Assembly (NCBI RefSeq): GCF_030406325.1
Contig: NZ_JAUEQY010000013.1
Span: 1 to 64,000, forward strand
DNA: 64,000 nucleotides
Source of the DNA: Actinomadura sp. DC4
GTDB taxonomy: Bacteria > Actinomycetota > Actinomycetes > Streptosporangiales > Streptosporangiaceae
Direction of reading: 5' to 3'
The notes under the pieces are model-generated. The model saw only the letters and a program-made list of their open reading frames with translations. It did no database searches and had not been told where the DNA came from. The position numbers and the translations under genes were made by a program. Each line of letters begins with the position of its first letter. Within the stretch, counting starts at the first letter, position 1. Shown piece by piece: positions 23,468-27,090 of the stretch.

Positions 23468-24421
23468 TCACCCGGCGTGACCCTGCCTGCGGTAACGGCC
23501 CGGAGCCACGCCGTACTCCCGCTTGAACGCGTTGGCGAAGGCGAACTCCGAGGTGTACCCGACCCGTACCGCCACCGCCCCCAGCGGGGCGTCGGACTCC
23601 CTCAGGAGCCCGGCGGCCACGGTCATCCGCCACCAGGTCAGATAGCCCAGCGGCGTACGGCCGACCAGCGCGGTGAACCGCCGGGAGAAGGCGGCACGGG
23701 ACAGCCCGGCCTGTTCGCCCAGGTCGGCGACGGTCCACCGCCTCGCCGGGTCGCCGTGCATGCCGCCGAGCGCGGCCGCGACCGCGGGGTCGCGGAGCGC
23801 GGCGGCCCAGCCCGCGGCGTGCCCGGGGCGCTCGGGGCGCTCGTCGAGCCAGCCGCGCACCATGTAGACCAGCAGCGCGTCGAGCAGCGCGGACAGGGCC
23901 GTGTCCGCCCCCGGGCGGCGCCGTTCGAGCTCGGCGCCGAGCAGGTCGATCGCGGCGCGCAGCGAGGGGTGGCGGCCGACGCGCGCCGGGAGGTGGATGA
24001 CCTCGGGAAGCTCGGCCATCAGGGGATGCAGGCGCGTACGGTCCAGCAGGTACGCGCCGCAGAGCAGGACGGACGCGCCGTCTTCGGACCGCTCCCGGTC
24101 GTCGGGGAGTTCGGCCAGCGGGTCGACGGACGGTGTGGCGCCCGGGTCGCCGGCCAGCTCGTGCCCGGCGCCGTGCGGGAGGAGGACCGCGTCTCCGGCG
24201 CCGAGTGCGATCGGGTCGCCGTCGCCGCGTCTCAGGCGGCAGGTGCCCTGCAGGACGACGTGGAAGCCGGCTCCCGCGAACGGCGGGTGGCGTACGGCCC
24301 AGGGGCCGGTCCGTCGGGTGCGGGCGGAGTGCGGCCGGCCAGTACGCATGGCGGCGATGGCGTCGCTGAGCAGGTCCACGCCACCGAGCGTACCGGCGGT
24401 CGAGACGATCACGTATGTCAT
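23468..24421 (-). CDS. AraC family transcriptional regulator
   Basis: 317 residues. N-terminal cupin-like ligand-binding half (FAGAGFHVVLQGTCRLRRGD, VLLPHGAGHELAG), as in AraC regulators of the cupin_6 type, and a C-terminal double HTH (WTVADLGEQAGLSRAAFSRR, then APLGAVAVRVGYTSEFAFAN with the closing FKREYGVAPGRYR). Divergent from the oxidoreductase gene at 24498, which it probably controls. A GTG at 24379 is an alternative start. Together they form a two-gene insertion between prcB and the endonuclease/pup genes. Confidence 0.88.
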   Translation of the reverse strand: MTYVIVSTAGTLGGVDLLSDAIAAMRTGRPHSARTRRTGPWAVRHPPFAGAGFHVVLQGTCRLRRGDGDPIALGAGDAVLLPHGAGHELAGDPGATPSVDPLAELPDDRERSEDGASVLLCGAYLLDRTRLHPLMAELPEVIHLPARVGRHPSLRAAIDLLGAELERRRPGADTALSALLDALLVYMVRGWLDERPERPGHAAGWAAALRDPAVAAALGGMHGDPARRWTVADLGEQAGLSRAAFSRRFTALVGRTPLGYLTWWRMTVAAGLLRESDAPLGAVAVRVGYTSEFAFANAFKREYGVAPGRYRRQGHAG

Positions 24422-24462
24422 GACACTTTCAGCGCATTAATCATCTTGGCGATGCTCCGTAC

Positions 24463-24474
24463 GGTGAGATCACC
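24463..24474. promoter_or_regulatory. short inverted repeat in the AraC/oxidoreductase divergent promoter
   Basis: GGTGAGATCACC has 5-bp arms around GA and lies 23 bases upstream of the oxidoreductase ATG, in the 76-base divergent promoter region. AraC proteins often bind direct repeats, so this assignment is weak. Confidence 0.25.
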
Positions 24475-24497
24475 TTGTTTCTTCGGAGGAGATGGAC

Positions 24498-25529
24498 ATG
24501 CGGATCGCCGTCTATGGCGCCAGTGGACACCAGGGAAAGCTGATCGTCGCCGAGCTGGCCCGGCGAGGTCTCCAGATCGTGGCGGTGGGGCGCGACCGTG
24601 AGCGGCTGCGCGCGGCCGCCGGGGACGCCGAGGTACGCGTCGCCGGCCTGGACGACGCGGACCGGCTCGCCGCCGCGTTCCGCGGCTGCACGGTCGTGAT
24701 CAACTGCGCCGGCCCCTTCACACTCTCGGGCTCGGCCGTGGTGCGCGCCGCGCTCGCGGCGGGATGTCACTACGCCGACACTTCCGGCGAGCAGGCACAG
24801 ATCAAGCAGACGTTCGACCTGTTCGGCGCCGAGGCCGGGCGCGCCGGCGTCACCGTCGTCCCGGCGGCGACCGACGGCGGCGTCCCCGGCGACCTGATCG
24901 CCCACCTGCTCGCCGACCGCCTCGGGCCGCTGGAGGAGATCGTCACCGCCCACCTGATCGCGGGGAGCGGCCGGCTGTCCCGGGGGTCGCTGCGCAGCCT
25001 GCTGGAGACGGCCGAGACGCTGTGGAGCGGAGGCCTGGGCTATGAGGACGGCGCGTGGCACCCGACGGCCGCGGCGCGGCGTACGACGATGAGGTTCCCG
25101 GGAGGCTCGTCGGAGGTGCCGGTCGTACGGTTCGCGCTACAGGAGGTCGTCACGGTCCCCCGGCACGTGGACGTCCGGCGGGTCGAGGGCGTCGCCGACG
25201 CCGCCCTGGCCGCCCGGTTCGCCATCCCGATCGACCCCGCGGCGATCGAGAGCCTGCCGGAGGGACCGGCGGCGGAGAGCCGGGAGGCTCAGGAGTTCAC
25301 CATCGTGATCGACGCCGTGGCCCGGGACGGCCGCTCGGCCCGCGGCGTGGTGCGGGGCCGCGACACGTACGGCACGACCGCGAGGGTCGCCGTGGAGGCC
25401 GCGAGCCGCCTGGCGGCCGACGGCGCCAAGCCGGGCGTACTGGCCCCGTCCCAGGCCTTCGACCCGGCCGCCTTCCTCGACGCCCTGGCTCCGTACGGCC
25501 TCACCTGGGATCTCACCGTCGACGGCTGA
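24498..25529 (+). CDS. saccharopine dehydrogenase-like NAD(P)-dependent oxidoreductase
   Basis: 343 residues. N-terminal Rossmann fold (MRIAVYGASGHQGKLIVAELARRG with a GxSGxxG-like loop), GRDRERLRAAAGDAEV at the second strand, and the ADTSGEQAQI motif typical of saccharopine dehydrogenase-like and trans-acting enoyl-reductase-type proteins. The ATG at 24498 sits 6 bases after GGAGGAG; the ATG at 24492 abuts it and is a poorer choice. Physiological substrate unknown. Paired divergently with an AraC regulator. Confidence 0.85.
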   Translation: MRIAVYGASGHQGKLIVAELARRGLQIVAVGRDRERLRAAAGDAEVRVAGLDDADRLAAAFRGCTVVINCAGPFTLSGSAVVRAALAAGCHYADTSGEQAQIKQTFDLFGAEAGRAGVTVVPAATDGGVPGDLIAHLLADRLGPLEEIVTAHLIAGSGRLSRGSLRSLLETAETLWSGGLGYEDGAWHPTAAARRTTMRFPGGSSEVPVVRFALQEVVTVPRHVDVRRVEGVADAALAARFAIPIDPAAIESLPEGPAAESREAQEFTIVIDAVARDGRSARGVVRGRDTYGTTARVAVEAASRLAADGAKPGVLAPSQAFDPAAFLDALAPYGLTWDLTVDG

Positions 25530-25545: not shown

Positions 25546-26529
25546 TCAGGCGAACACGTCCACTTCCGCAGGGCCGAACGGCTCTGCCGGCGCGGGGTCG
25601 TCCGAGGACGGGGTGCTCAGGTCGAGTGGGGGGAAGCGGAGTTCGGCCGGGCCTGGGTCCGCGACGCCGAGGTCGCTCTCCCCGGGCTGACCGGAGTCGT
25701 CGTGGGCGAGGGCGTGCAGTACGGCGTAGTCGTGCGCGCCGATCTGGCCGATGTCCCACCCCGGGTCGACGGCCGGGCCGTCCCGCCTGGGGCGTACGAC
25801 GGTGACGTCATAGTCACCACCGCCGGTCCGGCTGAGGCCGAACAGGCCGCCGGTGAGGTATCCGATCGCCCTGCGAAGCACCCAGGGGTCGTCGCGCAGC
25901 TGCCCCATCCCGGTATTGCAGTCCCCGCAGAGGACCCCCCGCACCCCGCCCGTCACATGATCATGATCGACGGCGAAGGGCGCCGCATCACGACAGATCG
26001 GACAGAGACCGTCCTGCCCCGCGATCATCCGCTCGACGTCCCGCTCACCGATGCCATAGCGCTCCGCCAGGCGATAGTGGCGTCGGCTCCGGCGTTCACC
26101 TCGCGGAGCCCTCGTCCGCGGTTCCGGCCGGACCTTCTCGACCAGCCGGCCCTCGAGATAGTCGACCGCGCGCCGCATGACCCGCGGATCGTCCTTGAAC
26201 TGGCCCAGACCTCCGTTGCAACGGAAGCACAGCAGACCTCGGACGTCGCCCGAGGCATGATCGTGATCGACGTGCAGAGAGCCTCGGTGCAGACAGATGC
26301 GACAGATACCGCGCTGCTCCTCGACGGCACGCTCGACCTCGGCCTCGGTCATGCCGTAACGGCGTTCGAAGTGGTAACCGCGCACGCTGCCGTGCTTCTT
26401 TGCCTTGATCGCTGCCATGACCTTGTTGTGGCACGGCTTGCAGTAAGTGGCCCGCCCTGAGGGATCGGCCCTGTTGCCGCCGAAGTCCGCAATCGGTTTG
26501 ATCTCGGCGCAGCGCGCGCAGTACTTCAT
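25546..26529 (-). CDS. tandem endonuclease VII-like HNH nuclease (3' part of a split gene)
   Basis: 327 residues. It begins with a zinc ribbon (C4-C7, C30-C33) followed by two copies of the endonuclease VII (T4 gp49-type) domain. Domain 1, about 52-126: ICRIC, VDHDH at 87-91, LCFRCNGGLGQF. Domain 2, about 152-227: LCPIC, VDHDH at 187-191, LCGDCNTGMGQL. Both keep the zinc cysteines and catalytic histidines. T4 endonuclease VII resolves branched DNA. The C-terminal 100 residues are acidic and unstructured-looking. The preceding 45-codon ORF encodes the missing first zinc ribbon half and overlaps it by ATGA; see the frameshift finding. A homologous gene is found at this locus in Streptomyces. 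Confidence 0.85.
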   Translation of the reverse strand: MKYCARCAEIKPIADFGGNRADPSGRATYCKPCHNKVMAAIKAKKHGSVRGYHFERRYGMTEAEVERAVEEQRGICRICLHRGSLHVDHDHASGDVRGLLCFRCNGGLGQFKDDPRVMRRAVDYLEGRLVEKVRPEPRTRAPRGERRSRRHYRLAERYGIGERDVERMIAGQDGLCPICRDAAPFAVDHDHVTGGVRGVLCGDCNTGMGQLRDDPWVLRRAIGYLTGGLFGLSRTGGGDYDVTVVRPRRDGPAVDPGWDIGQIGAHDYAVLHALAHDDSGQPGESDLGVADPGPAELRFPPLDLSTPSSDDPAPAEPFGPAEVDVFA

Positions 26530-26663
26530 TCCATCGGGAACACCCGAGTGGCGACATACAGCGACAGTCCGTCAGGGGACTGTTTGCGGCGCCAGAACTC
26601 GGCGGCGGGCTTCAGCTCCCCGCAATCCTTGCACCGCTTGTGATCCGGAACTAAATCGGACAT
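26526..26663 (-). CDS. 45-codon zinc-ribbon ORF, 5' part of the split endonuclease VII gene
   Basis: Starts 7 bases after pup. Encodes KRCKDCGELKPAAEFWRRKQ then SPDGLSLY, the first half of a CxxC...CxxC ribbon like those at the N-terminus of actinobacterial endonuclease VII proteins. The second cysteine pair is absent in this frame. After TAT (Tyr36, 26556-26558) a -1 shift would read C-R-H-S-G-V-P-D-G-M-K-Y-C-A-R-C and continue into the nuclease. The TGA overlaps the nuclease ATG (ATGA), so translational coupling is possible even without a shift. Likely a one-base deletion; a sequencing error is possible. Confidence 0.6.
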   Translation of the reverse strand: MSDLVPDHKRCKDCGELKPAAEFWRRKQSPDGLSLYVATRVFPME

Positions 26664-26670
26664 ACCAGGA

Positions 26671-26880
26671 TCACTCGCCGCCCTTTTGTACGTAACTGCG
26701 CACGAACTCCTCTGCGTTCTCTTCGAGGACTTCGTCGATTTCGTCCAGAATTGCGTCTACATCGTCCGTGAGCTTCTCGTTGCGCTCCTGGACTTCTTCG
26801 GCCGGCGCGGTCTGGGTCTCGTCGACCTCTTCCTCGCGCCGGGTCGTCTGCTTCTGGCCGCCCGTATCCCTCGTCGCCAT
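26671..26880 (-). CDS. pup: prokaryotic ubiquitin-like protein Pup
   Basis: 69 residues, intrinsically disordered, from the ATG at 26880 with GGAGG 7 bases upstream; longer frames lack this. Contains the Mpa-binding coiled-coil stretch (NEKLTDDVDAILDEIDEVLEENAEEFVRSYVQKGG). The last codon is GAG: the protein ends Gly-Gly-Glu, not Gly-Gly-Gln, so PafA can use it without deamidation by Dop. It is the post-translational tag that directs proteins to the Mpa-proteasome. Followed after 7 bases by the split endonuclease gene. Confidence 0.97.
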   Translation of the reverse strand: MATRDTGGQKQTTRREEEVDETQTAPAEEVQERNEKLTDDVDAILDEIDEVLEENAEEFVRSYVQKGGE

Positions 26881-27090
26881 GCTGAGCCTCCACTCCTGCC
26901 GAGAGACCTCGACTCTATCGTCGCCCGCCGACAACCAGTGGATCACTCACCGTGTCCCACCGGCCGACGTTCGGTCTCATGACGGGGTTATCGCCCGCCA
27001 GGATCGCTGCGAAACGGTCATACCGGTCACGACTGTGCATTGATCGACCTGGGCGCCGTTCCGCCCCGCGGGACGCGCCCGCACCGGCGG

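Follow-up and report, generated by a model that had tools for sequence, protein, structure and literature searches.

A split Endonuclease VII-type gene next to pup in an Actinoallomurus-like actinomycete, probably one of many breakages of a pup-linked nuclease

Why is the nuclease gene beside pup divided between two reading frames in the window, the 64,000-nucleotide stretch of DNA analysed here? The gene for the ubiquitin-like protein Pup is recognised by its families (PF05639, E 1.3e-29; TIGR03687, E 8.1e-21; query 26671-26889), and right after it lie a short and a long open reading frame, ORF1 and ORF2 (Table 1), both exactly where the first-pass annotation of this DNA had placed them. That annotation had read the pair as an Endonuclease VII-like gene adjoining pup and split by a frameshift within its first zinc ribbon. 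The identity of the gene is borne out: ORF2 matches Endonuclease_7 (PF02945) in two stretches at E 3.3e-45, with 152.3 bits against a curated cut-off of 23.6, and its two nuclease domains match their own profiles, made without the window, at i-E 2e-38 and 5e-42. ORF1 has no family in Pfam or NCBIfam at E 0.001; the half ribbon that remains in it, as had been supposed, is the first half of ribbon 1 (i-E 4e-17 against a ribbon-1 profile likewise made without the window). The assembly does contain the split, and in our best reading it reflects a deletion rather than a frameshift inside one ribbon. We consider it probable that a pup-linked Endonuclease VII-type nuclease gene with two ribbons has suffered a lesion in the window, whose genome is that of an Actinoallomurus-like actinomycete, and that this is one of many breakages at this place.

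Table 1. Features of the pup-linked nuclease locus in the window
Feature	Position	Strand	Remark
pup, ubiquitin-like protein Pup, GGE end	26671..26880	(-)	start at 26880 ATG assumed
ORF1 (45 codons): zinc ribbon 1, first half only (CKDC ... LY), followed by out-of-frame residues up to the stop	26526..26663	(-)	
Deletion junction, 2 nt	26553..26558	(-)	exact breakpoint +/- few bases
ORF2 (327 codons): zinc ribbon 2, followed by a pair of Endonuclease VII domains and a C-terminal tail	25546..26529	(-)	
ATGA stop/start overlap inside ATG-AAG (Met-Lys)	26526..26529	(-)	

The lesion can be described by comparison with intact relatives. In five of them (L004, L011, L012, L013 and L014; the L002 and L003 genes are those of L011 and L012) the DNA 3' of pup holds one open frame of 360-405 codons from stop to stop, which encodes ribbons 1 and 2, then a pair of nuclease domains and lastly a tail. 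From the Leu-Tyr codon to the (R/S)HS codon there are 84 nt in L011, L012 and L013, all three that were measured, against 2 nt in the window, a net loss of 82 nt; L004 and L014 have 9 nt less at the junction than these three, which makes the difference 73 and leaves the frame effect unchanged. The lost stretch contains the second CxxC of ribbon 1, and its length is no multiple of three. The MKYCARC segment, which had been joined to the ORF1 half to complete ribbon 1, aligns to the first half of ribbon 2, and the cysteine of CRH was created at the junction and is distinct from the relatives' CxxC. The window gene is therefore not a two-ribbon gene, since the frame is interrupted and no second CxxC is left in ribbon 1, and a one-base deletion, as had been suggested, falls short as the whole explanation given the 82 nt net difference. 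At the level of the assembled sequence a single 82-nt event and an 81-nt in-frame loss accompanied by a separate one-base change or error would look alike, and reads would be needed to distinguish them. In L004 (genome G002; 0-1188 nt after pup), we also note an otherwise open nuclease gene that seems to start at a TTG and has a Cys-to-Trp change in its ribbon 1.

Other details of the first-pass annotation stand, and take on a different meaning. A TGA at 26574-26572 does close the nuclease frame upstream, and the stop of ORF1 and the start of ORF2 do overlap as ATGA. The start Met of ORF2 corresponds to an internal Met in relatives, and three of the five relatives aligned (L011, L012 and L013) have ATG-AAG in frame at the overlap site. 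The overlap consequently requires no selection, because an upstream frame change meets a TGA within the existing in-frame ATG-AAG. The earlier suggestion of two translationally coupled proteins thus survives in part: the overlap is real and ORF2 looks constrained, but the overlap itself is a by-product of the Met-Lys codons. None of the five relatives compared encodes two separate ORFs here, so that a split in the window's lineage still stands and a natural two-protein arrangement was not found among them (L004, L011, L012, L013, L014).

What has become of ORF2 since the split? The D-H-H-R-N and cysteine residues (DHxH, Arg, Asn and two CxxC pairs) are intact in both nuclease domains, and at 23 columns that are near-invariant among 59 aligned domains the window's first domain differs at two (F for L, S for T) and its second at none. 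Over 324 codons dN/dS is 0.23 between the window and L011 and 0.22 between the window and L012, against 0.24 between L011 and L012, and unique nonsynonymous and synonymous changes number 19:38 in the window, 20:40 in L011 and 35:46 in L012; in a five-taxon comparison the window's unique changes (3:6) are too few for judgement. The half ribbon of ORF1 is conserved too, over 28 codons with synonymous sites near saturation. As a yardstick, in genus g82, which we take to be Streptomyces, relics have a median dN/dS of 0.72 (15 loci, 44 codons; two of the 17 broken loci, L200 and L202, were omitted as the motif is absent, and the one-ribbon L208 is in neither group), against 0.24 for 11 complete g82 genes. 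The relic value is 0.56 over 11 loci after removal of four with a frame change inside the segment and 0.46 once two further rows are removed, still above that of the complete genes. A functional short peptide in the g82 relics is less likely given this raised dN/dS, the size of the effect varying with the rows included. Because dN/dS in ORF2 equals that between intact relatives, the lesion would be recent, an artefact, or tolerated. The window looks like an intact-gene lineage that was broken recently, or one in which the short product may still be working; the constraint on ORF2 could fit a working short form equally well.

The last of these readings, that the deletion is fixed and that a 327-residue one-ribbon protein, coupled at the ATGA, works as a nuclease without ribbon 1, overlaps with our preferred explanation and differs by deeming the product useful. 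We regard it as possible, if on the unlikely side. The retained catalytic and cysteine residues of both domains and the unraised dN/dS are in its favour, as are relatives in which the CxxC-CxxC pattern of ribbon 1 is departed from while the rest is open (Cys to Trp in L004; His in the last place in L016 and L017) and locus L015, which carries one-ribbon nucleases in tandem. Against these points, no clear ribosome-binding site is apparent by eye before 26529, the two-ORF form occurs in none of the five relatives compared, and the conservation of the half ribbon, short and close to synonymous saturation as it is, fits recency better. L015 is no instance of a two-protein split, since each of its two ORFs is a ribbon plus a nuclease.

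An assembly or sequencing artefact, the true gene being intact or having an in-frame deletion only, would likewise account for a constraint that is the same as between intact relatives, and the window genome is a draft of 101 contigs; yet the overlap contains no run of four or more (the two runs of four in ORF1 lie outside it, at 26621 and 26578), an 82-nt loss is atypical of base-calling error, and other assemblies also hold broken copies of this gene, all of which makes an artefact distinctly improbable. As to a programmed -1 ribosomal frameshift joining ORF1 and ORF2, which the first-pass annotation had offered as an option while correctly noting the absence of a slippery heptamer, the frames do overlap. 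However, neither ORF1 nor the 50-nt overlap contains an X XXY YYZ heptamer, the five relatives use a single frame so that the two-frame form is not conserved, and the joined product would still be without half of ribbon 1; we give this reading hardly any credence.

We therefore return to a lesion of a formerly two-ribbon gene and propose the following model. Comparison with the relatives shows that a net loss of 82 nt took away the latter half of zinc ribbon 1, shifting the frame. The remnants are a peptide with half a ribbon and the 327 codons of ORF2, in which ribbon 2 and both nuclease domains are retained. Some low-level production of ORF2 may persist through termination-reinitiation at the ATGA. 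The lesion is probably young, because ORF2 has not drifted. The same gene appears to have been broken at the same place many times across the sampled Actinomycetes, as is seen for the loci examined, and intact versions seem to have been replaced by those of other lineages as well, for which two genera provide support.

The two best named relatives of the nuclease are from Actinoallomurus, and the window genome is itself Actinoallomurus-like. A nuclease match is present in seven of eight genomes of the window's genus, its own included, and all Endonuclease_7 matches in these eight genomes (E 0.001) are at the pup locus bar one short match on contig C56 of the window genome (425748-425915, E 1.3e-7). 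Between nuclease and prcB (23468-25529) the window has an NADP-binding dehydrogenase-like gene on the plus strand and an AraC-type regulator on the minus strand, and because these two intervene the start of prcB is ~3.4 kb from pup; in L002, L003 and L004 this distance is ~1.35 kb.

How often is the nuclease broken elsewhere? We found pup in 146 of 150 genomes of the family, 86 of 98 of the class and all 61 of genus g82, and surveyed the DNA after pup at 204 non-repeat loci: 145 from the family (142 of the 146, with G050, G148, G150 and G151 left out, plus G002, G004 and G006 of the window's genus), 38 from g82 and 21 others. The class set comprised the best 30 of the 86 pup matches, with four dropped as repeats, and the g82 set the best 30 of the 61; three of the 21 others (L015, L016 and L017) were found with a nuclease query and are biased toward nuclease presence. 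Two ribbons and the nuclease stand in one frame at 39 of the 204 loci (19 family, 11 g82, 9 others), where "complete" denotes profile hits and does not require all cysteines to be present: ribbon 1 deviates in L004, L016 and L017 and ribbon 2 in L180, and L018 is cut short by its available stretch. The hits of L026 and L183 are weak. The nuclease is broken or partial at 26 loci (8 family, 17 g82, 1 other) and has one ribbon at six (4 family including the window, 1 g82, 1 other), a class that includes the lesion-free tandem pair of L015 and, in L208, what may be a working short form. No trace of a nuclease was scored at 133 loci (114 family, 9 g82, 10 others), some of which end at contig ends (such as L070) and one of which, L020, is relic-like by eye. 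Broken, partial or one-ribbon loci together thus number 32 against 39 complete. An antisense control gave no hit of any kind at the 204 loci, and a reversed control none at i-E 1e-3, with a weaker hit at one locus. The prcB gene, found at 159 of the 204 loci, was full-length at 154 and cut by the locus end at five, and was broken at none. Among the g82 relics, those of L198, L204, L195, L212 and L217, which lie 0-620 nt downstream of pup, consist mainly of the final ~60 codons, adjoining or overlapping the prcB start, and their upstream part is gone or unrecognisable.

That these breakages are independent is suggested by the kinds of lesion together with a parsimony count. G075 (L098) has a different out-of-frame deletion, which runs from ribbon 1 into ribbon 2 over 176 alignment columns relative to L086 and was also judged against L092 and L141 of its genus, and in G007 an internal deletion reaches from ribbon 2 into the second nuclease domain. 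A PrcB tree of 34 complete and 23 broken loci (L015 set complete) requires a minimum of 14 switches between the two states, a rough count from a quick tree with unordered changes. Nuclease and PrcB distances correlate (Mantel r 0.736 for 34 loci, with none of 2,000 permutations as high), which points to much vertical descent. In two genera descent does not look purely vertical: although Actinoallomurus and genus g17 each form one clade on the PrcB tree, a single nuclease clade is rejected for Actinoallomurus (p-AU 0.0029) and for g17 (p-AU 0.0040), values that are optimistic as both genera were chosen after the neighbour table had been seen. The PrcB of G003 (L006) is 93% identical to that of L012, and its nuclease is of the one-domain type and falls outside the other Actinoallomurus ones; G081 (L104) has a PrcB 96% identical to that of L087 and a nuclease from another lineage. 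The L004 nuclease lies outside those of L001, L011 and L012, at an open fork. In G001 (L096) the stretch 6-1170 nt after pup holds a relic of ribbon 1 and then a different Endonuclease VII gene of 339 codons, whose tail is window-like by eye; this may be a chimera or a replacement. These observations are best accounted for by a pup-linked nuclease that has repeatedly decayed and been replaced.

What kind of nuclease is involved? The nearest counterparts are the intact Actinoallomurus genes L011 and L012 (67% and 65% identity to the window over 324 codons), which share with it the site after pup and the order of ribbon 2, two nuclease domains and tail, and differ in having a whole ribbon 1 and one open frame. 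The best solved relative by sequence is the type II restriction enzyme Hpy99I (PDB 3fc3; ORF2 residues 2-126, E 1.1e-7; in the intact L011, residues 258-299 only, E 8.3e-7), and a PADLOC type II restriction model covers the same ORF2 residues 2-126 at E 1.1e-18. According to excerpts of PMC6083498, Hpy99I and most of its Helicobacter kin adjoin a methylase; in contrast, none was found among the window neighbours tested (pup, the dehydrogenase-like gene, the AraC-type regulator and two proteasome subunits). The best PHROGs match is a phage endonuclease VII family (phrog_2633, E 5.7e-66), and T4 endonuclease VII (1e7d, E 3.9e-4) is the second solved relative after Hpy99I; in the T4 enzyme, a Holliday junction resolvase, the motif is at the N terminus (PMC6083498, in excerpt), unlike in the window. 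The same excerpts describe F-CphI as founder of a family of homing endonucleases with a DHHRN motif. ORF2 has the corresponding D, H, H, R and N of the Endonuclease VII active site. The motif is C-terminal in the F-CphI family (PMC6083498, in excerpt); in the window ribbons stand before it, but it is followed by a second copy and a ~100-residue tail, and in one-domain relatives the protein ends soon after the motif.

A tentative and rather doubtful speculation is that a selfish, homing-like DHHRN nuclease lands again and again in the 3' flank of pup and passes through gain, decay and replacement in Actinomycetes. Its target would be the conserved pup end, and the window copy would be one just inactivated. 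Such a cycle agrees with a site that is fixed, a presence that is patchy, and the decay and replacement seen, but ordinary horizontal transfer and loss of any dispensable nuclease would give the same picture; homing may be a driver of the pattern.

Among the titles and passages of the open literature that were examined, with subscription papers, preprints and supplements outside their scope, we found no account of an endonuclease in the pup locus. The main text of PMC2588565 contains the word "nuclease" 0 times; the available portion of PMC4255298 says nothing on a pup-linked nuclease gene, that of PMC12451607 names a "phage endonuclease VII" without a locus and contains "pup" 0 times, and literature on Actinoallomurus and pseudogenes gave nothing relevant by title.

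The split in the window is in itself ordinary and probably recent; what merits attention is the repeated decay at the pup address. A nuclease keeps one address beside a bacterial ubiquitin-like system in many families of one class, and yet among the 204 loci examined the broken or reduced copies (32) almost equal the complete ones (39) in number, while prcB is broken at none of 159. It can now be asked why the nuclease persists at this place, whether through selfish homing, through defence, or through a conditional role tied to pupylation.
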